DNA of 64,000 bases. Source: Zoogloea sp. Lineage in GTDB: Bacteria > Pseudomonadota > Gammaproteobacteria > Burkholderiales > Rhodocyclaceae. The DNA lies in assembly GCF_030157465.1 (NCBI RefSeq), contig NZ_JAOAUU010000079.1, forward strand, positions 1 through 64,000, given 5' to 3'. Of this stretch, positions 3,295-52,480 are shown in pieces. The notes under the pieces were generated by a model. It saw only the letters and a list, made by a program, of their open reading frames with translations. It was not told the DNA's origin and did no database searches. A program made the translations under genes and the position numbers. How positions within the stretch are numbered: position 1 is the stretch's first letter; every line of letters begins with the position of its first letter.

Positions 3295-5328
3295 TCAGTG
3301 TTTTCCCCGCCCGTCCGGCATCCGGACGTAGTCGACCAAGGCTTGCACCTCGGGCGGCGGAGGCGGGGTAAGAAGACTCACCACGGCGATTACGACAAAG
3401 CCTACCGATACGCCGAAAACCCCGCTGGATATCGGATGGATGTCGAGCCAAGCGTCGCCCATGCTGCCGCCGAAGAAGGGGTGAGTGCGCACGATATAGA
3501 GCAGCGTGACCCCCATGCCGGCGATCATTCCGGTGACAGCACCCCATTTGTTGGCGCGTTTCCAGAAGATGCCGAGCACCAGCGCCGGAAAGAAGGCGGA
3601 GGCTGCGATGGAGAACGCGAGCCCGACCATGAAGAGAATGTTGTCCGGCCGCAGGGATGCGACCCAGGCGGCCACCACCGCCACCACCAGCAACTGGGAC
3701 TTGGTGATCACCAGGCGCCGTTGGGTGGAGGCTTCCGGATTGATCATCTTGTAGTAAAGATCATGGGACAGCGCGTGGGATATCGTCAGCAGCAGCCCAT
3801 CAGCGGTCGACAACGCAGCCGCCAGGCCGCCCGCCGCGACAAGTCCGGACACCACGTAGGGCAATCCGGCGAGTTCAGGCACCAGCAACAGGATCGCGTC
3901 ACTGTTGATGGAAAGCTCGGCCAGCTGCAGGATGCCGTCACCATTGATGTCGTCGATCTTTACAAGCCCGACCCGCCCCCATGAGGCGACCCAGTGAGGA
4001 AGCGTTTCGATATTCGAGCCCACCAGGCTGCTATAGACCTCCCACTTGGCGAAAACGGCATAGGCGGGAGCCGTGACGTAGAGCAGGAAGATGAAGAGCA
4101 GCGACCAGAACACCGACCGGCGTGCCTCGCGAACGCTGGGCGTCGTGTAGTAGCGCGTCAGGATGTGGGGCAAGGCTGCGGTACCAATCATCAGCACGAA
4201 GACCAGCGCGATGAAATTGTTGCGGGCGTTATCCCGGGCCGCCTGGTCGGCGCCCGGGTGGGCCTCGGCGTGCGGCGGAGGATGCATCGTGCGCGCCAGA
4301 CTGTCCTGCCTCACGCGATCCCATTTGACGCGCGCCTCGTCGGGCGTGCGCGGCACGTCACGCAGCAGGCGCTCGGCGACGGCGATTTCGCGGGCGCTGG
4401 CACCCTGCGCACGCAGATCGTTGGCTTTCTGCACCAGGGCAAGGCGTTCAGTCGTGAGCGATTCGGGCAAGGCGGCAATCTTGCGGGCGTATTCATCGGC
4501 CCGCCCCTGGTAAAGGAGACGGACTGCGCTCTCCCGCGGCTCGGAAAACAACTCGAGCTCCTTCACGCCCAGATCGTGCAACACCTGCCCGTACATGACC
4601 TGCGGCACCGGTACGCCTGTCACCTTGTAAGAGAGGATTGCCACCGGCACCAGGTAGGCGATGATCAGGATCAGGTACTGGGCGACCTGTGTCCAGGTCA
4701 CCGCACGCATGCCCCCCAGAAAGGAGCACACGAGAATGCCGGCCAGCCCCACGAATACGCCGATCTCGAACTCGATGCCGATGAAGCGGCTGGTGATCAG
4801 GCCCACGCCGTAGATTTGCGCCACCACGTAAACGAAGCTCGCCAGCACAGCGGCAAAAACACCAACAACCCGTGCGAAATGGCCTTCATAACGGGCACCG
4901 AGAAAATCCGGGATCGTGAATTGGCCAAACTTGCGCAAAAAGGGCGCGAGCAGCAGGGCCACCAGCACATAGCCGCCGGTCCACCCGGTCACGAAGGCCA
5001 GCCCCTCGAAGCCTGCGTAGTAAAGCGTGCCGGCCAGGCCGATGAAGGACGCCGCGCTCATCCAGTCGGCGGCCGTAGCCATGCCGTTGAAGAGTGCCGG
5101 CACGCGCCGCCCCGCAACGTAATACTCGGAGACGTCGGAGGTTCGGCTCATCACGCCGATTGCCGCGTAGATGGCGATGGTCAGAAACAGGAAAATCTGG
5201 CCGATCCAGCGCGGCGACAGTCCGAACTGCTCGGCCACGGCGAGCAGTCCGACGAAACTGACGAAAACGAGGGCGTAGATGAGGTAATAACGCCCCAGGC
5301 GCCGGAAGAAGGCTGGCTGGGAACTCAT
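3295..5328 (-). CDS. Sodium:solute symporter large subunit (VC_2705 type, acetate/organate family)
   Basis: A 677-aa polytopic inner-membrane protein of the sodium:solute symporter (SLC5-like) family, about 13 hydrophobic segments. The SSS signature region appears as VAGRRVPALFNGMATAADWM and the TM after it. Residues about 280-370 form a hydrophilic, charged insertion, which with the adjacent DUF4212 small subunit is typical of the VC_2705 subfamily rather than of ActP itself. The neighbours (acs, sensor kinase, exonuclease, CBS-DUF294) suggest transport of acetate or another short organic acid. Substrate is inferred from context only. It is the last gene of the cluster. Confidence 0.9.
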   Translation of the reverse strand: MSSQPAFFRRLGRYYLIYALVFVSFVGLLAVAEQFGLSPRWIGQIFLFLTIAIYAAIGVMSRTSDVSEYYVAGRRVPALFNGMATAADWMSAASFIGLAGTLYYAGFEGLAFVTGWTGGYVLVALLLAPFLRKFGQFTIPDFLGARYEGHFARVVGVFAAVLASFVYVVAQIYGVGLITSRFIGIEFEIGVFVGLAGILVCSFLGGMRAVTWTQVAQYLILIIAYLVPVAILSYKVTGVPVPQVMYGQVLHDLGVKELELFSEPRESAVRLLYQGRADEYARKIAALPESLTTERLALVQKANDLRAQGASAREIAVAERLLRDVPRTPDEARVKWDRVRQDSLARTMHPPPHAEAHPGADQAARDNARNNFIALVFVLMIGTAALPHILTRYYTTPSVREARRSVFWSLLFIFLLYVTAPAYAVFAKWEVYSSLVGSNIETLPHWVASWGRVGLVKIDDINGDGILQLAELSINSDAILLLVPELAGLPYVVSGLVAAGGLAAALSTADGLLLTISHALSHDLYYKMINPEASTQRRLVITKSQLLVVAVVAAWVASLRPDNILFMVGLAFSIAASAFFPALVLGIFWKRANKWGAVTGMIAGMGVTLLYIVRTHPFFGGSMGDAWLDIHPISSGVFGVSVGFVVIAVVSLLTPPPPPEVQALVDYVRMPDGRGKH

Positions 5329-5340
5329 TGGCGCACGCCC

Positions 5341-5628
5341 TTAGCCCTCGTCCTTTACGCCGTAGCGCTTTTCAAGTCGGACCATCCCTCGATCGTAGAG
5401 CCACACGATGCAGATGAAAATGATCAGGGATCCCTGGCCGGCCATGTAAAAACCCAATGGCCAGCCAAAAAAAACCACGCTATTCAGCTCGTCGGCAAAC
5501 CAGCCGGGCAGAAAACTCGCGCTGGCCCAGACCAGCAGCAACACGGTGGTGAGTCTCAGCGTTGCGCGCCAGTAAGCCCGCGACCTTGCATCGCTTTCGC
5601 CTTGACTGCCATTTACGTTCTGGCTCAC
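5341..5628 (-). CDS. DUF4212 small subunit of the sodium:solute symporter
   Basis: A 95-aa membrane protein with two predicted TM helices (about 22-45 and 53-75) separated by the FADELN...FFGWPLGFYMAGQGS segment characteristic of DUF4212 symporter small subunits. I chose GTG at 5628 because GAGGAGC lies six bases upstream; an ATG at 5655 would add nine residues. The gene ends 12 bp before the large subunit starts, and the two are presumed to form one transporter. Confidence 0.87.
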   Translation of the reverse strand: MSQNVNGSQGESDARSRAYWRATLRLTTVLLLVWASASFLPGWFADELNSVVFFGWPLGFYMAGQGSLIIFICIVWLYDRGMVRLEKRYGVKDEG

Positions 5629-5698
5629 ATGTCGCTCCTCAATTCGGCCCGACATCCGGGCAGCCCTGCCGGGGGGCGAGTATAGCCCGCCGGCCCTG

Positions 5699-7114
5699 CT
5701 AAAGCTGATAACGGGTCTGGAGCTTGTGCTGAAGTCTGCGGGCCTGGCGGAACGACTCTTTCAGGAAAGCCCGCTCAAGATCGTTCAGATCGTCGGGCGA
5801 CACCCGGTTGGCTGGCGAACCCGGAACACGCTGGCGACGCAGCCGGAGTTGCTGGATAAAATCCAGCGCCTCCACCAGCGCATCGCACTCACGACTATCC
5901 CAGTGCAAGGCCGCGCCGGCGGCCCGGATGCGCTCCGCGGTGGAGGTTTCTGGCAGACCGAGGGCCAGCGCGTAGATACGCGCCGCATCGACGAACGGCC
6001 GGCAGCCGTCTCGTTTGAGATCGAGCTGACCGGTTTCGCGGTCAACGACGAAATCGCGAATACGCCCGAGTGGAGGGCCGCTCTGCAACGCATTCGCCGC
6101 CATGAAGCGCAGGAACAGTGGATTATCAGCGGCCACCTGCAGCAGCCAGCGCTTCAGGGCCATCGGCAGCGCCCAATCGCCCGCCAGCGGCCGGAAATCG
6201 AAAAAAATGGTGGAATTGAGCAGATCGTCGGCGCTGGCGGCACGCATCCACTCGGCAAAGCACCCACGCCACTCGGCCAGGGACAGGCACCATTTAGGAT
6301 TGCCGGCCATCACCCCGCCCTTGCAGAGCGAGAATCCGCATTGATCCAGCAAGGCATTGACGTGCTGGGCAAAGGGCAGAAAGCGCGCCCGGAGCAGATC
6401 GGGATCCTCGCCTTTGTCGGTGGCAAAAATGAGCCCGTTATCCTGATCCGTGACCAGGGTCTGCTCGAGGCGCCCTTCGGATCCGAAGGCCAGCCAGCAC
6501 CAGCGAACCAGTGGCAGATCGAACTCGGCCTCGGCCAGGTCGATGGCGGTCAGCACGATGAGGTCGTTGAGAATCGCGATCCATTCGTTGATGCGTCCGG
6601 CACTTTCGCCCCGATCCACCATCGCCGCGGCAGACGCCTGCACCTGCCGGGCCGCGGCGGCAAGGGCGTCGGCACTGGAGGCCGCCTGGATGGCCTCGAC
6701 GAGATCGTCCGCCAGCGGCCACCGGCTGGCGTAGAGATCGCTGCGTGACACCACCCCCGCAAAGCGGCCGGACTCGTCGACGACGACAAGGTGACGCAGA
6801 TCGTTACGGGCAAGAATCAGGCGTGCTTGATGAGGGCTGGCCTGCAGCGGCAGCGCGACGACACCGCCGGTCATGACGCTGGCCACCGGCGCGTCGAGAT
6901 CACCGCCGACGAGAGCGACCCGCTCGATGGCGTCCCGCCGGGTAAGGATGCCGAGCGGCTGGAAGCTCGCGGAATCGACCACCACGACCGTCCCGACCCG
7001 CCCGGCGCCCATCCGCCCAAGGGCCTCACGCACGCTGAGCTCGGGCCCCACACACACCGGCGGGCGACGAATCAGCGCCGCCAGCCCGCCTCCACGCTCA
7101 GATCCGGCGGACAT
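5699..7114 (-). CDS. CBS-pair protein with DUF294 nucleotidyltransferase domain
   Basis: 471-aa soluble protein. Two CBS domains occupy about 15-130 (ILTRRDAIERV and GVVSRSDLYASR mark their ends). Then comes a DUF294 GlnD-like nucleotidyltransferase core with LAFGSEGRLEQ, T and DQDNG at about 208-225, and a DUF294 C-terminal helical domain. CBS pairs usually bind adenine nucleotides, and GlnD-like domains transfer nucleotides to proteins or small molecules; the target here is unknown. The ATG at 7114 is preceded by GGTGGA. A GTG at 7126, directly after the upstream stop, is an alternative. Such genes are often found next to acetate permeases, usually with a separate exonuclease gene; here the exonuclease is part of the upstream fusion. 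Confidence 0.88.
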   Translation of the reverse strand: MSAGSERGGGLAALIRRPPVCVGPELSVREALGRMGAGRVGTVVVVDSASFQPLGILTRRDAIERVALVGGDLDAPVASVMTGGVVALPLQASPHQARLILARNDLRHLVVVDESGRFAGVVSRSDLYASRWPLADDLVEAIQAASSADALAAAARQVQASAAAMVDRGESAGRINEWIAILNDLIVLTAIDLAEAEFDLPLVRWCWLAFGSEGRLEQTLVTDQDNGLIFATDKGEDPDLLRARFLPFAQHVNALLDQCGFSLCKGGVMAGNPKWCLSLAEWRGCFAEWMRAASADDLLNSTIFFDFRPLAGDWALPMALKRWLLQVAADNPLFLRFMAANALQSGPPLGRIRDFVVDRETGQLDLKRDGCRPFVDAARIYALALGLPETSTAERIRAAGAALHWDSRECDALVEALDFIQQLRLRRQRVPGSPANRVSPDDLNDLERAFLKESFRQARRLQHKLQTRYQL

Positions 7115-7126
7115 TACATCCACCAC

Positions 7127-9295
7127 TCAATATTTGACGCGGGCGTAGTAAGTCTTCTCCGAGGCACGCCGGGCCTCGCCGAGCGTACGAATGCCCATCT
7201 CGGCAAGCAGCGGAATCATGCGCAGGAAGACTTCGCCGGTGACGATCGCGTCGCCGATCGCCGTGTGCCGCCCCATGATGTTGACGCCCATCCGCTCGGA
7301 AATGGCTTCGAGCCGGTGGGATTCCTGGGACGGGTGAAGCACCGCAGACAGCAGCAGGGTGTCGAGTACAGGTTGATCAAAGCGGATGCCGGTGCCCTCC
7401 TCCTTCAACTGCAGGAAGCGCATGTCGAAGGCTGCGTTGTGAGCCACCAGCACCGTATCTTCGGCAAAGGCATGAAACGCCGGCAATACCTTGCTCATCG
7501 GCGGCTGGCCGACGAGCATCTCCGGGGTAATGCCATGGATCTTGGTCGACGCTTCGGGCAGTTCGCGCAGTGGATCGACCAGTTGGTCGAAGGACTCCGA
7601 CCTGAGGAGCTTCCCGTTGACGATGCGCGTCGCGCCGATCTGGATGATCTCGTCACCTTCGGAAGGATTGAGGCCGGTGGTTTCGGTATCGAAAACCGTA
7701 AACGCCAGTTCGGAGAGCAGGCGATCGTCCAGTTCGTGAGTGCCTTCGATCCGCTTGAAGAGATCGAAATCGTAATATTCAGGACGGCTTTCACCCTTGA
7801 GATAGGTAGCGGCCTCCACCTGGTCCTGCGGTGCGGCGGACGGCAGCAGCAGGCGGAAGAAGGCCCTGTGCTGGGTTTTCTCGCGCTGCAGCCAGATCTC
7901 GCCGTCGTGTCGGGCTATGACGTCGCGCACCGTGAGCGGCGAACTCTCGCCGGCGAAGGTCATCGGCTCCAATTCCCAGGCCATCACGGTTTCGGTGCTC
8001 ATCGCCTGGCCGGACCAGATCAAATCAAGATGCACCAGACGCCCGGCCGAGGCGAGCCGAAAACGCACCTCACGCACCTCGAACTCATCCGACAGCCGGC
8101 TGGCAAGGTAGCTGATGGCCTGCAGCAGCGAGAAGCTGTCAACCTTGACCCACACGCCCGGGTCCACATCCTCCAGCTTGGTCGGCAGGCCGAGCTTCTT
8201 CTCGACCCGGCGCTGGGCCGCAGCCACCAGATCGGCACCGAGCATTTCATCGAGGGGCCAGCGGGTCTTCAGGGAGTCGGCAAAGGCGTTGGCGGTTTCA
8301 TCCAGCCGGCTGCTCATTCCCTGAACTTCATCGCGAATCACGGTGAGGAAGCGGTCTTTCAGTTCGGCGTCGAGATCGGGGTACTCCAGCATCTCGGCCG
8401 CAGCGCGCAGGTTGGCGAGGGACGAGCGGCTGCCTTCGGTAAGGGAGTGCAGCATCTGGTCGCGCTTCGTCTCGGCCTCGAAGTTGCGGGTGATGTTGTC
8501 GAGCATCAGCACAAAACCCGACACCGCGGCATCCCCGTCGGCTTCCACATTGGTCGCCATGACCGGCGCCATCTGCACGCGCAGCAACTGGCCGGCGCGG
8601 GTGGTGGTGACAAAATTGGCCACGGGCTGGGCGCTCTGGCGACGGATGCGCTCCTGGATGCTCTCGAGCGCATGGACAATCAGGCTGCGCTCGAAAACCA
8701 TGTAGATGGAACGCCCGAGCCCGATGATTTCGCCGCCACCGGCCGCCGCCGGCGCGTCGGACATGGCCTTGAACTGCAGCCGGGCGCGGTTGTTGTAGAG
8801 CAGGATGCGGCCGTCCAGGTTGCAGACCACAACACTCTGGTTGAGCTCGGACATCAGCGCCGCCAGCCGGTTGCGCTCTTCCTCGACAGACAGGCGTGCC
8901 TCGCGGATTCGCGCCTCCACGTCCTCCTGAAGCCCGCGCCGCTGATCGGCAAGGCTGTTGACCGCCTCGGCGATACGCTGCAGATCCGGCGAACCGGATG
9001 GCTTGAGGCGCCGCGCGGGATCGGTCCCGACGATCAGGCCGATTTCGTCCGCCAACAGCGCCGGCCCGGCAATATGATCCTGGGCGAAGGACTTCATCAG
9101 CACGGCGGCAGCCCCCGCGCCAACCAGCCCGATCATGATCAGCAGGCCGAGGCGGGGATTCAGGATGGGCTCCAGAATCGCTCGCTCTTCGGGCCCCAGA
9201 TCGCGCCACACCGTGAAGCCTGCCGCGGCCATCACCCCCACAACCAGAATGCAGGCCGTGGCGATCGCCAGTGCCTGCCGCGATTTGAGGCTCAC
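7127..9295 (-). CDS. Membrane PAS/degenerate histidine-kinase protein fused to a DnaQ-like 3'-5' exonuclease
   Basis: 722-aa multidomain protein. Two TM helices (about 8-28 and 45-65), a HAMP-like linker, a coiled coil (about 115-140) and a PAS domain (about 140-255) come first. A kinase-like region follows. Its dimerisation helix reads EGSRSSLANLR where HELRTPL is expected, so the phosphoacceptor histidine is missing, and I cannot find intact N and G boxes. The C-terminus (about 533-700) is a DEDDh exonuclease: FDTETTG (D536, E538), HNAAFD (D624), HTAIGDA (H677, D682). Start is the GTG at 9295, overlapping the receiver gene's stop (GTGA). It probably couples a membrane signal to a nuclease acting on nucleic acid or an oligonucleotide; the substrate is unknown. 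Confidence 0.88.
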   Translation of the reverse strand: MSLKSRQALAIATACILVVGVMAAAGFTVWRDLGPEERAILEPILNPRLGLLIMIGLVGAGAAAVLMKSFAQDHIAGPALLADEIGLIVGTDPARRLKPSGSPDLQRIAEAVNSLADQRRGLQEDVEARIREARLSVEEERNRLAALMSELNQSVVVCNLDGRILLYNNRARLQFKAMSDAPAAAGGGEIIGLGRSIYMVFERSLIVHALESIQERIRRQSAQPVANFVTTTRAGQLLRVQMAPVMATNVEADGDAAVSGFVLMLDNITRNFEAETKRDQMLHSLTEGSRSSLANLRAAAEMLEYPDLDAELKDRFLTVIRDEVQGMSSRLDETANAFADSLKTRWPLDEMLGADLVAAAQRRVEKKLGLPTKLEDVDPGVWVKVDSFSLLQAISYLASRLSDEFEVREVRFRLASAGRLVHLDLIWSGQAMSTETVMAWELEPMTFAGESSPLTVRDVIARHDGEIWLQREKTQHRAFFRLLLPSAAPQDQVEAATYLKGESRPEYYDFDLFKRIEGTHELDDRLLSELAFTVFDTETTGLNPSEGDEIIQIGATRIVNGKLLRSESFDQLVDPLRELPEASTKIHGITPEMLVGQPPMSKVLPAFHAFAEDTVLVAHNAAFDMRFLQLKEEGTGIRFDQPVLDTLLLSAVLHPSQESHRLEAISERMGVNIMGRHTAIGDAIVTGEVFLRMIPLLAEMGIRTLGEARRASEKTYYARVKY

Positions 9296-9666
9296 GCGGG
9301 AAGTTCCAGCAAGGACTTCACCTTGGCGACCAGCTCTTTGGTGGAGAAGGGCTTGGTCATGTAGGCATCCGCCCCCATCGCCATGCCCTTGCTGACCTCG
9401 GTCTCGCGCCCCTTGGCGGTCAGCATCAGGATGCGCGTGCCCTGCAGGGCGGGTTCGGCGCGGATCTCCTGGCAGACCTCGTAGCCGTTCTTGCGCGGCA
9501 TCATGACATCGAGCAGCACCAGATCGGGCGCCTCGCTGCGCACCTTGTCGAGGGCTTCCTGACCGTCGTTGGCGATGCAAACGACGAAGCCCTCCCGCTT
9601 CATCAAGAACTCCAGAGAAATAACGATGTTTTGCTCGTCATCGGCAATCAGTATTTTTTTGGTCAT
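9292..9666 (-). CDS. Single-domain response regulator (receiver only)
   Basis: 124-aa CheY-like receiver with acidic pair D9/D10, phosphoacceptor D53 in LLDVMMP, T83 in MLTAKG and K105 in YMTKPF, so all active-site residues are intact. No output domain follows. The ATG at 9666 has a GGGAGGGGGG ribosome binding site. It lies 78 bp after the symporter-kinase gene and overlaps the exonuclease fusion by four bases, so it is probably phosphorylated by the kinase and acts by protein-protein contact, perhaps on the adjacent pseudokinase-exonuclease (inference). Confidence 0.93.
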   Translation of the reverse strand: MTKKILIADDEQNIVISLEFLMKREGFVVCIANDGQEALDKVRSEAPDLVLLDVMMPRKNGYEVCQEIRAEPALQGTRILMLTAKGRETEVSKGMAMGADAYMTKPFSTKELVAKVKSLLELPA

Positions 9667-9744
9667 TTTCCCCCCTCCCTCATCGTTGCCCGAGGCGCGG
9701 CTACCGGCATGCAAACCTCATCCGCGGGCACGTGCATCCGTAGT

Positions 9745-12501
9745 TTATCCTGCCTCTTCTTTCGTTTCTGTTGATTTCCCGCAAGGCATCAGAAACGAGA
9801 ATGTCGCGCCCTCGCCGGGCACGCTCTCCACCCACAGGCGCCCGCCGTAGTGCTCGACGATCTGGCGGCTGATCGGCAGCCCGAGACCGGTGCCCTGGGG
9901 CTTGTCGGTCATGGTATTGCCCCCCTGCCGAAACTTCTCGAACACGACCCGTTGCTCCTCGGGCGTGAGACCCGGGCCGTTGTCGCGCACATCCACGCGC
10001 AGACCCTCGCCGGTCTGCGTCAGACTTACCCACACCCGCCCCTGCCCCCGCAAAACAAATTTCACGGCGTTGGAAAGCAGGTTCAGCATCACCTGAACCA
10101 GCCTGTCGCGATCGGCGATCAGGATCGGTACGTGATCAGGCAGATTGATTTCGAGCGCCACTCCCTTGTCCTTGAACAACTGGCTGGTGGACGCCGCAGC
10201 CTGCTCGATCACCTCGACAAGCCGGACCTCGCCGTTTTGCCATTCGGCATGGCCGGACTCGATCTTGGCCATGTCGAGCACCTGGTTCACCAGGCGGGTC
10301 AGACGTTCGGTTTCGCTGACGATGATGCCGAGAAAGCGCTTCCGGTCTTCCAGGTCGATCTTGGGATCCTCCAGCAGCATCTCGGAAAAAGCCCGGATCG
10401 ACGTCAGCGGCGTCCGCAGTTCGTGGGTTACCGAGGACATGAAATCGTCCTTCAGGAGATCCAGCTCCTTGAGGCGCTCGTTGGCGCTGCGCAGCTCCCG
10501 GGTGGCGGCTTCCAGCTCGAGGGATTTTTGCTCCAGGCGCTTCGAGTACGCACGCACCTGGGAGGCCTCGTCGAGGATGTTCATCACCTCGTCGAGACCA
10601 AGCGGCTCCTCCTTGACCACCGAGGCCACCATGACCCGGGCCGACGCACTTCCGATTGCACCGGCCAGCGTCGTCTCGGCAAAGTGAACCAGCCCGGCGT
10701 CGGCCTGCAAGGCCTCGACACTCGTCACCCCGCGCGACCGCGCATATTCGGCGAAAACCCCATGCGCCCGCTCACGGCCGATGAAGCGGCCGATCAGCGG
10801 AAGCAGGTCTCCAATCTGCGCGCTGCCGCGCCAGAACGCACCACCGGACGGACGGCTTTGCTTGAAGACATCGACGAACAAGATCGCCTGTCCGGCCTCG
10901 ATCGCGTTCGGCCGGCGCATCAGGGACACGCAGACGTAGCCGCCAATGTTGACGAGCATGCTCCAGAACAAACTGTGGGCAATCGGGTCGAGGCCCTTGA
11001 GGCCGAACAACTCCTGAGGCCGCAACAGCTCCAGGCCAAAGAGCCCGTGCTGCAAAAATTCGATGGGAAGCCAGCCTGACTTGGCGAAGGATGGCAGCAG
11101 CAGCGTATACAGCCACACCGCAAACCCGCCCGACAAGCCTGCCAGCGCCCCCGGGCGTGTGCCACCGCGCCAGTACATGCCCCCGATCATCGCCGGTGCA
11201 AACTGGGCCACCGCAGCAAAACTGATCAGCCCGATACTGACCAGCGCATGAGCCTCGCCGGCCAGCCGGAAATACAGGTAACCCAGGAGCAAAATCAGGA
11301 CGATCGCCCCGCGCCGGATGCCCAGCAGCACCCCCGTAAAATCATCCTGCCCCTGCAGGGCCGGCCAGCGATAGCGCAGCAGCAGCGGCATCACCAAGTC
11401 ATTGCAGACCATCGTGGACAGGGCAATGGTCTCGACGATGACCATCCCGGTTGCTGCCGACAGGCCGCCGATGAACACCAGCAGAGCCAGCCAGCCCTGC
11501 CCGAAGGCCATCGGCAGGGTCAGCACGAAAGTGTCGGCATCCACGCTCTGCCCGGCAAACAGCATCAGCCCGCCAAGGGCGATGGGCAGCACGAAGACGT
11601 TGATCAGGAGCATGTACAGCGGAAAAAGCCAGATCGCCCGGCGCAGGTGGTTTTCATTGACGTTCTCGACCACCGCCACCTGAAACTGGCGCGGCAGGAA
11701 CATCACCGCCAGCATCGACAGCAGCGTCAGCGCAAACCAGCTGCCATAGCTGTTGCCCCCCGCGCCCATGCGCATCAGCCCCTGCAGGTCGGCGTGTTGT
11801 GCAGCCTGCGAAAAGACATCGCCAAAGCCATCGAAGATGCCGAACGTGACGTACACGCCGACGCCGACGAAGATCACCAGCTTGACCAGCGACTCGAACG
11901 CCACCGCAGCCACCATACCCTCGTGGCGCTCGGTGGCATCCAGATGGCGGGTGCCGAACAAGATCGTGAACGCCGCCATGATCAGCGCAATGTAGAACGC
12001 CGTATCGGCCAGCCAGGGAACAGTGCCTGCCTTGGCCGGCATCACGATGGCCGGGTAGAGGGTAAGGATTGCAAAACTGTTCGAAACCGCTTTCAACTGC
12101 AGCGCGATGTAAGGCAGCACGCCAAGCACCGCGATGACGGTGACCAGCCCGCCCAGCAGGTGGCTCTTGCCATAGCGGGATGCGATGAAATCTGCGATCG
12201 AGGTAATGCGGTTCGTCTTGCCGATACGCACCATCTTCAACATCACGAACCACCACAAGGCAACAACCAGGGTGGGGCCGAGGAAGATGGGCACAAAGCC
12301 GAGCCCCGACGAAGCCGCCCGCCCGACGCTGCCGTAGTAAGTCCAGGTGGTGCAATAAACGGCCAGCGACAACGCATAAATTGTCGGATTGGCGATGATC
12401 GAACGCCCTGCATCGGCGCGCTTGTCGCCGACGTAGGCCACTGCGAAGAGCAGCAGCAGGTAAAGAAATGAGGCGACGACGATGGTGGTTCCGGTCAGCA
12501 T
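9745..12501 (-). CDS. Sodium/solute symporter-like sensor histidine kinase (CbrA/CrbS-like)
   Basis: 918-aa inner-membrane sensor. Residues 1 to about 500 are an SLC5-type symporter domain with about 12-13 TM helices (YCTTWTYYGSVG, GGLSAATGMVIVET, QFAPAMIGGMYWRGG). A coiled coil (about 640-690) leads into a functional kinase core: H693 in THELRTPLTS, N box NLLSNAVKF, G boxes DNGPGL and GTGLGLPIS. CbrA and CrbS/MxtR relatives control carbon and acetate utilisation in gammaproteobacteria. Unlike those, no LuxR- or NtrC-type partner is encoded here, only the single-domain receiver downstream. I see no clear PAS domain in the linker. Confidence 0.93.
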   Translation of the reverse strand: MLTGTTIVVASFLYLLLLFAVAYVGDKRADAGRSIIANPTIYALSLAVYCTTWTYYGSVGRAASSGLGFVPIFLGPTLVVALWWFVMLKMVRIGKTNRITSIADFIASRYGKSHLLGGLVTVIAVLGVLPYIALQLKAVSNSFAILTLYPAIVMPAKAGTVPWLADTAFYIALIMAAFTILFGTRHLDATERHEGMVAAVAFESLVKLVIFVGVGVYVTFGIFDGFGDVFSQAAQHADLQGLMRMGAGGNSYGSWFALTLLSMLAVMFLPRQFQVAVVENVNENHLRRAIWLFPLYMLLINVFVLPIALGGLMLFAGQSVDADTFVLTLPMAFGQGWLALLVFIGGLSAATGMVIVETIALSTMVCNDLVMPLLLRYRWPALQGQDDFTGVLLGIRRGAIVLILLLGYLYFRLAGEAHALVSIGLISFAAVAQFAPAMIGGMYWRGGTRPGALAGLSGGFAVWLYTLLLPSFAKSGWLPIEFLQHGLFGLELLRPQELFGLKGLDPIAHSLFWSMLVNIGGYVCVSLMRRPNAIEAGQAILFVDVFKQSRPSGGAFWRGSAQIGDLLPLIGRFIGRERAHGVFAEYARSRGVTSVEALQADAGLVHFAETTLAGAIGSASARVMVASVVKEEPLGLDEVMNILDEASQVRAYSKRLEQKSLELEAATRELRSANERLKELDLLKDDFMSSVTHELRTPLTSIRAFSEMLLEDPKIDLEDRKRFLGIIVSETERLTRLVNQVLDMAKIESGHAEWQNGEVRLVEVIEQAAASTSQLFKDKGVALEINLPDHVPILIADRDRLVQVMLNLLSNAVKFVLRGQGRVWVSLTQTGEGLRVDVRDNGPGLTPEEQRVVFEKFRQGGNTMTDKPQGTGLGLPISRQIVEHYGGRLWVESVPGEGATFSFLMPCGKSTETKEEAG

Positions 12502-12511
12502 GACACCCCCG

Positions 12512-12703
12512 CTAACGCTCGATGATCCACGCCATCAGCGCGATCACGGCAGCCCAGAGACCGAAGACATAAAGGTAGATAGCAGGAACACCCAACCAGG
12601 CGCGCTCCACATCGAACATCGACAGAATCGGGTAGTTCAACAGCACCCACCCTAGAAGGAACAGCGCCACCAGGCGCTGGCCGGTCAGCGTAGCCTTGAT
12701 CAT
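12512..12703 (-). CDS. Small membrane protein upstream of the symporter kinase (CbrX-like position)
   Basis: 63 aa with two hydrophobic helices (about 9-28 and 39-59) and a short charged C-terminus. The ATG at 12703 has a perfect AGGAGG ribosome binding site. The stop is 10 bp from the kinase start, suggesting translational coupling. In Pseudomonas a small ORF called cbrX occupies the same position ahead of cbrA; I propose equivalence by position and character, not by alignment. A direct role as subunit of the symporter domain, as DUF4212 is for the transporter, is plausible. Confidence 0.75.
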   Translation of the reverse strand: MIKATLTGQRLVALFLLGWVLLNYPILSMFDVERAWLGVPAIYLYVFGLWAAVIALMAWIIER

Positions 12704-13036
12704 TTCGCCTCCTGCCGTTGGTTCATGCTTGCCCGGAATTTATAAGCCGAAAAGAAGGTTTTTACGAGCGCGGCTGAAAATATCTGCCCACCGACCAGGC
12801 AAGCGGCAAAGCCGTGCCTCGACACGTCAAGCCCTATTCATCGACACACGAACGACAGGCGAAAAAAAGGCGCGAAATCCGCGCCTTTTTCTCCCCCTCA
12901 AACCCCCGGCCTGACTGCGCCGGGTTCCTCCCCTGTTATTTCCTTGACGGCTCGCGTTGTTATTGTTCCGGCAATGCGCGGAAAGCCGGTTGCGGGCCGC
13001 CCCCGGCCTCAAGGCCGGGGCGATACGACCAATCGA
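12704..13036. other. Intergenic region between acs and the symporter-kinase cluster
   Basis: 333 bp without a convincing gene. It contains a perfect 8-bp GC hairpin directly after the acs stop (13001-13008/13013-13020, loop TCAA, no T tract), an intrinsic terminator (12862-12890) and, nearest the cluster, an AT-rich TTATAAAT that could be the -10 of the kinase operon. So acs and the kinase operon are probably separate transcription units. Confidence 0.6.
12862..12890 (-). terminator. Rho-independent terminator downstream of acs
   Basis: GGCGCG (12869-12874) pairs with CGCGCC (12880-12885) around a 5-base loop. The stem is flanked by seven A and five T, so it can act in both directions; on the minus strand it ends in a run of seven T, about 150 bp after the acs stop. 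Confidence 0.88.
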
Positions 13037-14995
13037 TTACTTGAGCTGCTCCAGGATTGCCGGGTTCTCCAGAGTCGAGGTGTCCTGGGTGATTTCCTCG
13101 CCCTTGGCCAGCTGACGGAGCAGACGGCGCATGATCTTGCCGGAGCGGGTTTTCGGCAGGTTCTCACCGAAGCGGATGTCCTTCGGCTTGGCGATGGGGC
13201 CAATTTCCTGACCAACCCAGTTCTGCAGTTCCTTGATCACCGCAACAGCAGCGTCGCCGGTCGGGCGGGCGCCCTTCAGCACCACGAAGGCCACGATGGC
13301 TTCGCCGGTCATGTCGTCCGGACGGCCGACTACGGCCGCTTCGGCAACCTTCTCGTGAGCCACCAGCGCGGATTCGATTTCCATCGTGCCCATGCGGTGC
13401 CCGGAGACGTTCAGCACGTCGTCGATACGACCGGTAATGGTGAAGTAGCCGGTGTCCTTGTCACGGATCGCACCGTCGCCCGCCAGGTAAAGCTTGCCCT
13501 GGAAGTCGGCCGGATAGTAAGACTTTACGAAACGGTCGGCGTCACCCCAGATATTGCGGATCATCGACGGCCACGGACGCTTGACGACAAGGATGCCGCC
13601 CTGGCCCCACGGCACTTCGGTGCCGGTTTCATCGACGACTGCAGCCATGATGCCCGGGAAGGGCAGCGTGCAGGAGCCGGCAATCAGCGGCGTGGCGCCG
13701 GGCAGCGGGGTAATCATGTGGCCGCCGGTCTCGGTCTGCCAGAAGGTATCGACGATCGGGCAGCGGCTGCCACCAACGTTCTCGTAGTACCACTCCCAGG
13801 CAGCCGGGTTGATCGGCTCGCCAACGGAACCGAGCAGGCGCAGGGACGACAGATCGTATTTGTTCGGATGCACGGCCGGGGTGTTGTCCGCAGCCTTGAT
13901 CAGGGAGCGGATGGCGGTCGGTGCAGTGTAGAAGATGCTGACCTTGTGGTCCTGGATCATTTTCCAGAAACGGCCGGCGTCCGGGTAGGTGGGCACGCCT
14001 TCGAACACGATCTCGGTCGCACCGCAGGCCAGCGGGCCGTAGGTGATGTAGGTGTGGCCCGTGACCCAGCCGATGTCGGCCGTGCACCAGAAGACGTCGT
14101 CCGGCTTGATGTCGAACGTGTACTTCATGGTCAGGACGGCGTGCAGCAGGTAGCCGCCGGTGGAGTGCTGAACGCCCTTGGGCTTGCCGGTGGAGCCGGA
14201 GGTGTAGAGCAGGAACAGCGGGTGCTCGGCTTCGACCCATTCCGGTTCGCAGACATCGGACTGGCTGGCGACCAGGTCATCAGCCCAAACGTCGCGACCT
14301 GCAACCATCGCGGTTTCTGCGCCGGTGCGCTTCACGACGATGACGTTCTTGATGGAGGGGCAACCACTTGCCAGCGCTTCGTCAGCGATGGACTTGAGGG
14401 GCAGCGCCTTGCCGCCGCGGTTCTGGCCGTCAGAGGTAATGAGGGCCACGGCGCCGGCATCGTTGATGCGGTCAGCCAGGGACTGGGCGGAGAAGCCGCC
14501 GAACACGATGGAATGGGTGGCGCCGATGCGGGCACACGCCTGCATGGCAACAACACCTTCGATGGACATCGGCAGGTAGATGACGACGCGGTCACCCTTC
14601 TTGACGCCGACGCTCTTCAGGCCGTTTGCAAACTTGCAGACGCGGCCGAGCAGATCCTTGTAAGTAACCTTGGTGACGTCGCCCTTGTCGCCTTCGAAGA
14701 TCAGCGCGACCTTGTCGCCAAGGCCCTTATTAACCTGGCGATCGAGGCAGTTGTAGGAGACGTTCAGCTTGCCATCGGCAAACCATTTGAAGAACGGAGC
14801 ATTGCTTTCATCGAGGACCTGGGTAAACGGGGTCTGCCAGTCGAGCAGCTCCCTGGAGTGCCGAGCCCAAAAACCTTCGTAGTCCTTCTCTGCTTCAGCG
14901 CAGAGCGCCTTGTACGCGTCCATGCCCGACACGGCAGCGTTCTTCACCACCTCTTCGGACGGATAGTAGAACTTCAGGGTGGTTTCGTTCGTCAT
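13037..14995 (-). CDS. acs: Acetyl-CoA synthetase
   Basis: AMP-forming ligase that converts acetate, ATP and CoA to acetyl-CoA, AMP and PPi in the cytoplasm. The 652 aa match the family length. The AMP-binding motif [15 protein letters not shown], the [11 protein letters not shown] region, and the C-terminal [11 protein letters not shown] with the regulatory acetylatable lysine (K620) are all present. Ribosome binding site GGAGAGG precedes the ATG. It lies directly upstream of the CbrA/CrbS-like sensor and acetate-type transporter genes, matching the acetate-switch systems of other proteobacteria. Confidence 0.97.
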
Positions 14996-15354
14996 TTTTC
15001 ACCTCTCCTCGTGTTTTATGAGTGTGCAACGTTGATGCTCTAAACCCTGGCTGGTGGGGGTGCAGACCGTTCAATTACGCAGGCATCCGTGTTGTGTTTT
15101 TCTTGGTGTGCCGATCGTGCATCCGCCGAGGATTAAAGTCGATCAATCTTACACATGACTTACACCCGTGTGCACGCCGTACTGCAACGGGTGCAGGCTG
15201 CACTGCCCTGCCACCCTTCGAGCCGTAAATCAGCAGTTCCCCGCCAAGCTGATTCTCAAGCTTTCCCCGCTTTCCACCGGATGCCGTCCGCTCCACACAA
15301 AAACTCTTTTGACATAGAATCGACAACTGTAAAAAAAGACATACGATTACGCAA
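14996..15354. other. Divergent regulatory region between acs and the pilus operon
   Basis: 359 bp with no credible gene. It contains an 11-bp-spaced direct repeat CTTACAC (15148-15154 and 15159-15165) upstream of acs and a GTGCAGGCTGCAC palindrome-like element near 15190. TTGACATAGAAT (15309-15320) ahead of the secretin gene contains a possible -10 TAGAAT, but no good -35 for it. I see no sigma-54 element with correct spacing. Confidence 0.45.
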
Positions 15355-17238
15355 ATGACGTTCCATCCCCACCTGGCGCTCGCTCTGGCACTGGCAACCG
15401 CGGCCTGCACATCCCTGCCGCCAAGCCCGCCGTCGACAAGCCACATCCGCGCGGATGGAAGCGTGCAGGCGTCGCCAGCCATTCCGCCGCTGGTGCCCGA
15501 CATCCTGCCGCTGCCACGTCCGGCAGCCGAGCCCAAGGTGGAAACGTATTCCGTGGTCGTCACAAACCTGAACATCCAGGACCTGCTCTTCGCCCTCGCC
15601 CGCGATGCCCGGATCAACATCGACATTCACCCCGGCCTCACCGGCACGGTCACTCTCAACGCCATCAACCAGACCCTGCCGCAAATCCTGTCGCGCCTCG
15701 CCCGGCAAGTGGACATGCGCTACGAATTCGACGGCCCCAACCTGCTGGTGATGCCCGACAGTCCCTTCCTGCGCAGCTATCGCGTGGATTACGTCAACCT
15801 CAGCCGAAACGTCTCGGGCACCGTATCCACCAACACCCAGATCGCAACCAGCGGCACCGGCACCACCTATTCGGGCAACGCTGGCCTGCCGGCGAGCAGC
15901 ATGGTCAGCGGCGGCAACGTTTCCGCCACCCGCATCGAAAACACCTCGCGCAACCAGTTCTGGGAATCGGTCGAGAAAAACCTCCGCGACCTCCTGCGCG
16001 AAACCGACAAGATCCTCCCCGAAGGCTCCAGCGAAACCCTCATCGAAAACGTCGAAACCGCCACCACCACCGGCACAGGAGCCGGCCTCGCCCAGTCCTC
16101 CGCAGGCACAGGCAATCGCTCCCGCAGCCGCAACGTCCCGCAGCAAGCTGGTGGTGGTGGCCTGGCGGCCAGCCCCGGCCCCGCCGCCATGCAGAACAGC
16201 ACCACCACCATGGTGCATAAATCCACCTTCCGAGAAGCGGCGTCCGTCATCGCCAACCGCGAGACCGGCGTCGTCACCGTCCGAGCTACCGGGCGCCAGC
16301 ACGAAAAAGTGCGCGAATTCATCGACGAAGTGATGGTCGCAGCCCGCCGCCAGGTTCTCATCGAGGCCACGATCCTCGAAGTCGGCTTGTCCGACACCTA
16401 TCGCCAGGGCATCGAATGGCGGCGCATCCTCGATAGTGGCACCCGTTTCGGCATCACCGGCCCGGCGCTCGGCGCCAGCACCGGCAACGCCGTCACGCCC
16501 TTCAGCCTCGCCTACAGCAGCGCCGGCGGCATCGACTCGACGATCCGGCTCCTCGAAGGTTTCGGCACGGTCAAAGTGCTGTCCAGCCCCAAGCTGTCAG
16601 TGCTCAACAACCAGACCGCCGTGATCAAGGTGGTTGAAGAGTATGTCTACTTCAACGTCAAGGCCGACACCACCCAGACGGCCAACACCGGCGCCCTGAC
16701 CACCGTCACCACTACGCCCCAGGCCGTTTCCGTCGGTCTCGTCATGACGGTCACACCGCAGGTCAGCGAGAACGACGAGATCATCCTCAACGTGCGCCCC
16801 ACCATCTCCAGCATCGCCGACTTCCGGCGCGACCCGAATCCCAACATCCCGGCCAGCATCGCCAATCTCGTGCCGCAGATCCGCACCCGCGAGATCGAAT
16901 CCATCCTGCGCCTGGGCAACGGCGAAACCGCCATCCTCGGTGGCCTGATGGAAGACCGCATCGACTACAAGACCGGCCGCGTCCCGCTCATCGGAGCCAT
17001 CCCGCTGCTCGGCGAGCTCTTCACCAACCGGGACAACGCCATTCAGAAGACCGAGCTGGTCATATTCCTGCGCCCCATCGTCGTGCGCGAGCCTGGTGTC
17101 ATCGCCAACACCCCCCACCTGCGCCAGTTACTCCCTGCCGGTAACTTCCTCACCGACACACCCCGCCCCGGCAGCCGTAACTTTCCCCCGCCACGCACGG
17201 CGGGCGAGATCGCCAGCCCCGGAGCAGGCACCCCATGA
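15355..17238 (+). CDS. mshL: MSHA-type pilus secretin MshL
   Basis: 627-aa outer-membrane secretin, the channel through which a type IV pilus exits. The N-terminus has a hydrophobic signal ending LATAAC, a plausible lipobox. A secretin N domain (about 60-130) is followed by a Ser/Thr/Gly-rich low-complexity stretch (about 150-290). The C-terminal secretin domain contains VKVLSSPKLSVLNNQTA, VGLVMTVTPQVSENDEI and VPLIGAIPLLGELF. Followed with a 4-bp overlap by the MshN-like gene. No strong ribosome binding site is visible before the ATG at 15355. Confidence 0.92.
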   Translation: MTFHPHLALALALATAACTSLPPSPPSTSHIRADGSVQASPAIPPLVPDILPLPRPAAEPKVETYSVVVTNLNIQDLLFALARDARINIDIHPGLTGTVTLNAINQTLPQILSRLARQVDMRYEFDGPNLLVMPDSPFLRSYRVDYVNLSRNVSGTVSTNTQIATSGTGTTYSGNAGLPASSMVSGGNVSATRIENTSRNQFWESVEKNLRDLLRETDKILPEGSSETLIENVETATTTGTGAGLAQSSAGTGNRSRSRNVPQQAGGGGLAASPGPAAMQNSTTTMVHKSTFREAASVIANRETGVVTVRATGRQHEKVREFIDEVMVAARRQVLIEATILEVGLSDTYRQGIEWRRILDSGTRFGITGPALGASTGNAVTPFSLAYSSAGGIDSTIRLLEGFGTVKVLSSPKLSVLNNQTAVIKVVEEYVYFNVKADTTQTANTGALTTVTTTPQAVSVGLVMTVTPQVSENDEIILNVRPTISSIADFRRDPNPNIPASIANLVPQIRTREIESILRLGNGETAILGGLMEDRIDYKTGRVPLIGAIPLLGELFTNRDNAIQKTELVIFLRPIVVREPGVIANTPHLRQLLPAGNFLTDTPRPGSRNFPPPRTAGEIASPGAGTP

Positions 17239-51839: not shown

Positions 51840-52092
51840 GCCGACCAAAAGACAAATCTCTTTTGGACACAAGCACTTAGGAACGGGAGGCGGCAAATGG
51901 GAAATCCGCTTACAAATCAATGCCGATACAAAGCATTGCAAAAGTAGCGGCTGAATTGCGGAACGCCGGAAACGGCCTCGGAGGGAGACAACGTGCCGCA
52001 AGGCGGAAAAGTGCAAACAACTGTAATGCCGCAGGCGTGCGGCAAAGATGTAACTACACGTTGCAGAGAAAGGTGTAGCAAAAGGCGAAAAT
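51840..52092. other. Intergenic region between the dcw promoter and rnpB
   Basis: 253 bp with no convincing gene; open frames here carry no recognisable features. Two hairpins follow the rnpB 3' end on the minus strand: CTACAC/GTGTAG (52054-52078) and TGCCGCA/TGCGGCA with a 4-base loop (52027-52044). The second could terminate rnpB, but it lacks a clear T run. Confidence 0.5.
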
Positions 52093-52480
52093 GGGAAGTT
52101 CGCCGATAAGCCGGGTTTTGTCGAGCGAGCCGATCTTGCGATCAACCCGCCGGGCAATCATTCCTCTGGTCGGCGCGTTACCACGCCGCTCAAGCAGCCT
52201 ACCCGGGGACTCCGCGAGCAGCGTCAACGTCCCCCTATTTGGCCTTGCCCCGGATGGGGTTTGCCGTGCCGTCCGTGTCACCACGTCCGCGGTGGGCTCT
52301 TACCCCGCCGTTTCACCCTTGCCTGATCTCCGAAGAGCCATCGGCGGTTTGCTTTCTGTTGCACTTTCCGTCGCTTTGACCCGAAGGCTATGGCGCCCGG
52401 CCGTTAGCCGGCATCCTGCTCTATGGGGCCCGGACTTTCCTCGATGCGCGAACGCACCGCGATTGCCTGGCGAACTTCCC
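52093..52480 (-). ncRNA. rnpB: RNase P RNA (bacterial type A)
   Basis: Catalytic RNA of RNase P, which matures tRNA 5' ends. On the minus strand the 5' end GGGAAGTTCGCC pairs with the 3' end GGCGAACTTCCC (P1). The universally conserved GAGGAAAGTCCGGGC near the 5' end, ACAGAAA in the middle and CCCGGCTTATCGGC near the 3' end are all present. Length 388 nt fits type A. Confidence 0.96.

Follow-up and report, generated by a model that had tools for sequence, protein, structure and literature searches.

The window analysed here, a stretch of 64,000 nucleotides from Zoogloea sp., harbors a minus-strand cluster of eight genes encoding, in transcription order, acetyl-CoA synthetase (acs), a product of 63 amino acids (aa; open reading frame (ORF) SM63), a sensor kinase (KIN), a lone receiver (REC), a pseudokinase-exonuclease (EXO), a CBS-DUF294 protein, a DUF4212 protein and a symporter. 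Within the SLC5 transceptor two-component systems, the set SM63-KIN-REC-EXO is a variant. The reading that we tentatively prefer, and to which we give slightly less than an even chance, is that of an acetate-linked SLC5 transceptor operon with a non-genetic effector arm, in which a signal would pass from KIN through REC to EXO and gate its nuclease, acs being regulated separately.

In this model, KIN, in conjunction with its CbrX-like partner SM63, would sense acetate, a related monocarboxylate or the transport of either, and would phosphorylate REC, a step that is proposed because the two genes are frequently adjacent and the catalytic residues are intact. By analogy with DivK and the pseudokinase DivL, and as suggested by the anatomy and conservation of these proteins, phosphorylated REC would dock on EXO through the dead DHp domain of the latter, and docking would turn the 3'-5' exonuclease of EXO on or off. 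The nuclease may act on RNA or small nucleotides, adjusting acetate uptake or assimilation. Transcription of acs would be handled separately, probably by an OmpR-family regulator that resembles TctD and whose gene lies next to actP, acting through the direct repeat GTAAG-N6-GTAAG. The broader claim, namely a two-component system with a membrane exonuclease as its direct output, where a free receiver, phosphorylated by a nutrient transceptor and docked on a dead kinase with an acidic residue in place of the phosphorylated histidine, gates the decay of RNA or nucleotides and the acetate genes are controlled at the DNA level by a separate OmpR-family regulator through GTAAG repeats, is doubtful. 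If it were true, receiver proteins would gain a nuclease output and the pseudokinase a clear use as a docking platform for receivers, and the presence of exonuclease and CBS/DUF294 genes in acetate regulons, whose role is left open in the available text of PMC9927547 and PMC5715377, might be explained.

The anatomy of EXO is central to this proposal. A profile built from 22 EXO sequences matches the structure 4i5s, a VicK-like histidine kinase (residues 254-497, E 9.9e-12), and, over residues ~523-702, the PolC/DnaQ exonucleases. Ahead of both parts lie two N-terminal hydrophobic stretches and a weak PAS_4 match (E 0.021). The place of the phosphorylated histidine is occupied by Glu287 in the window protein and, among 100 distinct EXO rows, by E in 81, D in 9, Q in 5, A in 2 and V, R or a gap in 1 each, His being found in none. 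The exonuclease residues D536 and E538 are kept in 99 of these rows and D624, H677 and D682 in 98; the rows that break the DEDDh set are a contig-end fragment (L084) and a row of 25% identity (L122). Because His is absent from all 100 rows while the DEDDh residues are kept in 98-99 of them, the kinase half is predicted to be dead and the nuclease half very probably alive.

REC is a Response_reg domain and nothing else, and the statement in the earlier note on this DNA that the only response regulator of the cluster lacks an output domain is confirmed. Its residues D10, D53 and K105, as well as T/S83, are kept in 100 of 100 distinct sequences. KIN retains intact HisKA and HATPase_c domains (Pfam), with the H-box [ST]HELRTPL in 89 of 90 distinct homologues, and its HATPase_c ends at residue 906 of 918, with no C-terminal receiver called by Pfam. 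The symporter-like part of KIN received no call from Pfam or NCBIfam, and no match to Pfam SSF; it is assigned as such because the symporter of the operon aligns to KIN residues 310-491 (27% identity, E 2e-4) and most of residues 1-650 can be aligned with other SLC5-type kinases. The sole match of this transporter-like part in the genome at E 1e-20 is KIN itself, which is the only long match among the own-genome matches listed. No family model for a STAC domain matched KIN in the Pfam and NCBIfam scans, and no PAS domain was called in the domain scans; the stretch between transporter and kinase may resemble a STAC domain.

By profile comparison, SM63 is related to the small proteins whose genes precede those of CbrA-type kinases (94.5% probability, E 8e-8, against a set of six distinct loci chosen by hydropathy), controls with DUF4212 and with reversed CbrX reaching 1.5% and 1.6% probability. 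A hairpin ORF was recognized by eye in 13 of 14 fetched stretches upstream of CbrA-type kinases. The available text of PMC6591292 describes the CbrX of P. putida as a protein of 58 aa translationally coupled to CbrA, and a preprint (PMC13022988), as far as its available text goes, places CbrX on the transporter domain of CbrA by cryo-EM and reports that growth on histidine did not require it.

The association of these genes was followed in the best 80 of at least 580 confirmed EXO relatives, a sample tilted to betaproteobacteria (a further fetched stretch, L111, duplicates one of these loci, L083, and other overlaps are possible), in a class sample of 185 genomes and in an order sample of 120 genomes; absences of EXO, KIN or C115-type relatives (the last introduced below) in the genome searches refer to the candidates scored, at most 6, 9 or 25 per genome depending on the search. 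REC is the gene immediately before EXO in 76 of the 80 loci, KIN immediately precedes REC in 70 and SM63 is located upstream of KIN in 66. Several of the missing neighbours are accounted for by contig ends, and two loci (L093, L099) lack REC despite room for it. Near-full EXO matches occur in 9 genomes of the class sample. Three gamma-type loci (L112, L115, L116) show the rearranged order REC-EXO-SM63-KIN, with REC still directly before EXO, and all three class-sample stretches that have KIN but no full EXO match (L118, L119, L120) carry REC upstream of SM63-KIN. Two Rhodobacterales plasmids, of Aestuarium and Marivivens (L133, L134), hold REC and EXO in the order acs-DUF4212-SSF-DUF294-unknown membrane protein-REC-EXO, with no KIN in the fetched stretch, the unknown protein of L134 (162 aa) having no Pfam match, while a Paracoccus denitrificans plasmid carries DUF294, a small ORF, KIN, REC and EXO in a row. 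REC is therefore found with KIN in the absence of EXO and with EXO in the absence of KIN, a pattern that fits what would be expected of a go-between. As judged from these comparisons, the conserved unit is the four genes SM63-KIN-REC-EXO rather than the whole list of eight. It could be argued that the neighbourhood has no joint function at all, as acs, DUF294 and the symporter vary as neighbours among loci; this is extremely improbable, given that the REC-EXO and KIN-REC adjacencies recur across the alpha-, beta- and gammaproteobacteria, in some cases on large plasmids (Paracoccus, Cupriavidus).

Several observations weigh against the proposed path from KIN through REC to EXO. In the order sample, EXO was found in 13 of 120 genomes (one of them, G256, with only a contig-end piece and another, G285, matched chiefly in the nuclease half), KIN in 17 and both in 10. 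Seven of the 17 KIN genomes thus lack EXO at E 1e-60, and REC therefore needs another use there, REC lying directly downstream of KIN in six of the seven (L140-L145). The other locus without a full EXO (L139) has a LuxR-type gene (Response_reg-GerE, L139:9850-10485, plus strand) directly after KIN, with REC ~5 kb off. Conversely, a full-length EXO without an adjoining lone receiver is seen in L093, L099, L113, L146, L149 and L152. In P. putida, a strain deleted for the RNase_T exonuclease gene pp_0353 grew normally on acetate and had a growth defect on pyruvate, according to the available text of PMC9927547, whose authors speculate on a role in mRNA degradation. In favour of the path, the profile of the dead kinase gave 32.8 bits for KIN of the same genome versus 13.8 bits for the best of 19 other kinase ORFs, in a comparison confined to 20 own-genome ORFs from 83 matches, some of them cut at stretch ends. 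Six of nine CrbS-like hybrids scored below 0 and three obtained no score, as did a true CbrA (L119); ORFs labelled CbrA that did score are contig-end pieces of KIN and were excluded. Among the kinases tried, the dead kinase appears to resemble KIN the most, which would be compatible with a shared receiver.

At the DNA level, the lack of a DNA-binding output claimed by the earlier note does not hold as regards acs, which is preceded by a perfect GTAAG-N6-GTAAG. Each of the 26 acs upstream regions tested from the 80 loci has the perfect repeat, and in these loci GTAAG pairs occurred 38 times at spacing 6 and never at spacings 0-5 or 7-15, with the reversed control word giving 0-5 per spacing and a permuted one 0-1. 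With up to one mismatch, the repeat is present upstream of SM63 in 11 of 66 regions (2 perfect, 9 with one mismatch; 0 and 0.8 in shuffled sequences) and upstream of DUF4212 in 6 of 32 (shuffled 0.4); it was not found before KIN, EXO and nearly all DUF294 genes in these loci, and the kinase operon of the window has none upstream, the best candidate having 3 mismatches. In the fetched loci and the window, 44 of 47 repeats are located no more than 450 bp ahead of acs (31), DUF4212 (8), SSF (1), DUF294 (2) or SM63 (2), a distribution favoured by loci centred on the module. The genome-wide repeat is often rarer than its reversed control in the order sample (4 versus 18 in G302, 3 versus 17 in G290), and because many genomes show no enrichment over the reversed word, the case is one of position and spacing and not of numbers.

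The 4.7-Mb genome to which the window belongs (G000) contains three such repeats, against none of the reversed control. One precedes acs; the other two precede the gene of an OmpR-type regulator and the adjoining DUF485-actP in a second cluster (C57; L162:7332-12086, minus strand), which also encodes a 2CSK_N-HisKA-HATPase kinase beside the regulator. The regulator (Response_reg and Trans_reg_C) is closest to TctD, below the TctD cut-off, and the symporter passes the ActP subfamily model NF006903 but not the ActP equivalog cut-off. A repeat within ~40 bp of such a regulator gene occurs in at least 7 genomes (G000, G207, G208, G214, G229, G258, G301), and among 20 stretches upstream of close homologues of the regulator, 5 hold a perfect repeat (shuffled 0) and 1 a repeat with a single mismatch (shuffled 0.24), while 14 have at best two or more mismatches within ~400 bp. 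OmpR-family regulators bind direct repeats of this kind (11-bp). C57 is probably the acetate regulon core of this genome, and, judging from the position and conservation of the repeats, its TctD-like regulator would be the protein that binds them; acs very probably has a DNA-binding regulator that is not of the CrbR type. GTAAG-N6-GTAAG would offer a directly testable acetate regulon of betaproteobacteria, distinct from the CrbR/ACTU switch of gammaproteobacteria. A second element resembling ATTA-N8-TAAT lies just downstream of the repeat in the window (~15132-15147) and is found in acs upstream regions in 3 perfect and 5 one-mismatch copies among 35 (shuffled 0.15 and 1.4).

These data also bear on the alternative that the output of KIN is transcriptional, KIN phosphorylating a distant regulator, either the TctD-like one of C57 or a LuxR-type one (C115), with REC as a phosphate sink or relay and EXO as a passenger. 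This is rather unlikely, though it is the most substantial competitor. It would agree with the repeat shared by acs, actP and the C57 regulator gene, with its occurrence before SM63-KIN in the relatives counted above and with the LuxR-type gene after KIN in L139. The C115 regulator is the best CrbR candidate of the genome (163 bits, as compared with 338-367 for five profile sequences) and groups beside CrbR on a long branch (support 92/88). At E 1e-30 its relatives occur in 26 of the 120 order-sample genomes, 8 of the 17 with KIN versus 18 of the 103 others. Nevertheless, the C57 regulator has its own adjoining kinase, no CrbR-type gene of at least 130 bits exists in the 80 loci, 9 of the 17 KIN genomes have no C115-type relative at that threshold among the at most 25 candidates scored per genome, and a sink role leaves unexplained why REC so regularly stands directly before EXO. 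As an own-genome orthologue of CrbR, C115 is distant; its relatives accompany KIN in 8 of 17 genomes, so that it is not required, nor is it excluded. No NtrC partner of the CbrB type was found within the operon, the only genes inspected for it.

Among the known systems closest to this one is CrbS/CrbR (MxtR/ErdR) of Vibrio and Pseudomonas. CrbS is described in the available text of PMC5715377 as an SLC5/STAC hybrid kinase that ends in a receiver and acts through the LuxR-type CrbR and the ACTU repeat; two fetched hybrids (L123, L135) likewise end in Response_reg according to Pfam. Both systems link an SLC5-type kinase to acs and an acetate symporter, and both involve a CBS/nucleotidyltransferase gene, which in the CrbR regulon is Pflu5625 (PMC5715377, in its available text) or PP_0354, with the exonuclease gene PP_0353 behind it in P. 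putida. The window differs in its non-hybrid KIN and in its receiver, which forms a protein of its own next to a pseudokinase-nuclease; neither a close relative of CrbR nor an ACTU motif before acs was found (8.9 bits for the latter, versus 16.2-22.6 for ten published sites). The best ACTU scores in acs upstream regions (L082, L091, L094, L100) are 10.7-12.8, also below those sites. Since CrbS carries the receiver that KIN lacks (PMC5715377, available text) and REC adjoins KIN, the pair could be a split hybrid in which a rearrangement of CrbS turned its C-terminal receiver into a gene of its own, the function otherwise being that of an ordinary CrbS/R system. This is very unlikely: a search with the window REC matched 2 of 9 CrbS-like hybrids at 12-14 bits, while by the same method the lone receivers of L111, L112, L114-L120, L131 and L132 reached 124-167 bits (a comparison of scores), one genome (G145) holds KIN and a CrbS-like hybrid together, and the ACTU motif was not found before acs. 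A descent of REC from the receiver of CrbS is accordingly not favoured.

A different role was given to the nuclease by the earlier note, in which DUF294 would add a nucleotide to a target such as the symporter, Acs or an RNA, or would make a small oligonucleotide, with EXO removing the product and REC controlling the cycle. This is distinctly unlikely. It would be in line with the catalytic-type motif of DUF294, G[ST]x[GA]Rx[EA]...DQD, which is intact in 84 of 84 distinct members above 200 bits, with DUF294 matches above 100 bits in 12 of 13 EXO genomes versus 44 of 107 others in the order sample, and with the position of DUF294 no more than 1.5 kb away from EXO in 44 of the 80 loci (24 times as the adjacent gene of the same strand, 20 times on the opposite strand). 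On the other hand, DUF294 is present in 56 loci and absent from 24 fetched stretches, 21 of which extend more than 2 kb downstream, absence in the Thauera- and Aromatoleum-type genomes referring to the local stretch; in L154 it adjoins the symporter while EXO sits elsewhere in the genome. Moreover, two exonuclease-like partners of other DUF294 copies were inspected, and both lack the first catalytic Asp, so that removal cannot be their function. One of them follows a second DUF294 protein of the same genome (cNMP-binding-like, CBS, DUF294; G000:C32, L155:6499-9149, minus strand), has Asn in place of this Asp and gave no Pfam match; the other is joined to CBS-DUF294 in a single 704-aa ORF (L120:1156-3267, plus strand), a fusion that in itself would speak for the cycle, in a genome that has KIN and REC and no full EXO match. 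The nucleotide cycle is thereby weakened and finds no support as a general rule. The full set of eight genes listed in the earlier note is not conserved either, as the 24 loci lacking DUF294 show. With acs in 27 and an SSF symporter in 48 of the 80 loci, DUF294 and the symporter are frequent associates and not obligatory parts.

The preferred reading, in which EXO is the output of KIN and REC, has partial parallels in other known systems. The CBS/DUF294-exonuclease pair is already published as a CrbS/R (MxtR/ErdR) target: pp_0354, a CBS protein gene whose promoter is bound by ErdR, forms an operon with pp_0353 in P. putida (PMC9927547 and PMC8402216, in their available text). The window shares with this pair the presence of CBS-domain and RNase_T genes in one acetate-linked operon, whereas its EXO has an additional membrane pseudokinase half; the C32 pair looks closer to PP_0354/PP_0353, a likeness drawn without sequence comparison to P. 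putida. RpuS/RpuR of Sinorhizobium, which responds to pyruvate, also has an SLC5/STAC kinase controlling a monocarboxylate symporter, but its operon encodes a LuxR-type response regulator (PMC9100948, available text).

In the histidine transceptor CbrX-CbrA of Pseudomonas, the gene of a small two-helix membrane protein likewise sits immediately before that of a non-hybrid SLC5 kinase; the window differs in having no CbrB-type gene in the cluster, no PAS domain called in KIN and a receiver without output domain. DivK and DivL of Caulobacter are a single-domain receiver and a histidine-kinase-like protein lacking the phosphorylated histidine. The window likewise encodes a lone receiver next to a protein of this kind, yet EXO mostly has Glu or Asp at this place and carries an exonuclease. 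A literature search that covered few subscription journals found no description of a kinase-receiver-pseudokinase-nuclease unit or of GTAAG repeats in acetate control.

With regard to the layout of the locus (Table 1), the gene list and order of the earlier note agree with those found, some starts being corrected, and its domain calls hold in Pfam and NCBIfam (TIGR03648 for the symporter, TIGR03647/DUF4212, the CBS pair with DUF294 and DUF294_C, Response_reg, HisKA with HATPase_c, RNase_T and acetate-CoA ligase). REC most likely starts at ATG 9666 rather than at TTG 9714, and EXO most likely at GTG 9295, overlapping the REC stop as GTGA; the 817-aa ORF originally listed for EXO is an upstream extension of the same frame. 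A gap of 333 bp separates acs from SM63. Because a stable, U-tailed hairpin lies in this gap (0 of 200 shuffles equally stable), acs probably forms a transcription unit separate from the kinase operon; the hairpin was first spotted by eye and folded afterwards, and a simple terminator consensus scan did not list it. The promoter and terminator consensus scan as a whole gave results near shuffled levels.

Table 1. Features of the acetate-linked cluster, with window coordinates
Feature	Position	Strand	Basis
acs, acetyl-CoA synthetase	13037-14995	minus	TIGR02188 above cut-off
Terminator-like hairpin between acs and SM63	12855-12935	minus	fold z -4.7
SM63, CbrX-like 63-aa two-helix membrane protein	12512-12703	minus	profile match to CbrX-type small proteins
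KIN, SLC5-type sensor histidine kinase, non-hybrid, 918 aa	9745-12501	minus	HisKA, HATPase_c
REC, lone CheY-like receiver, 124 aa	9292-9666	minus	Response_reg
EXO, predicted membrane pseudo-histidine-kinase and DEDDh 3'-5' exonuclease, 722 aa	7127-9295	minus	RNase_T, structure matches
EXO degenerate DHp/CA part, residues 254-497	7805-8536	minus	match to 4i5s
EXO DEDDh exonuclease domain, residues 523-702	7190-7729	minus	PolC/DnaQ match
CBS-CBS-DUF294 nucleotidyltransferase-like protein, 475 aa	5699-7126	minus	CBS, DUF294, DUF294_C
DUF4212 small symporter subunit	5341-5655	minus	PF13937, TIGR03647
VC_2705-family sodium/solute symporter	3295-5328	minus	TIGR03648, 774 bits vs cut-off 321
GTAAG-N6-GTAAG direct repeat upstream of acs, proposed OmpR-family regulator site	15148-15163	minus	perfect repeat

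Among the matches listed, the closest relatives of EXO are found on Zoogloea contigs, with 88-90% identity. Divergent from acs, a large ORF on the plus strand (15355-17238) encodes what we take, from its sequence, to be a pilus or secretion secretin. Elsewhere in the window, a bacterial RNase P class A RNA gene is located at 52091-52478 on the minus strand (Rfam, 295.9 bits).

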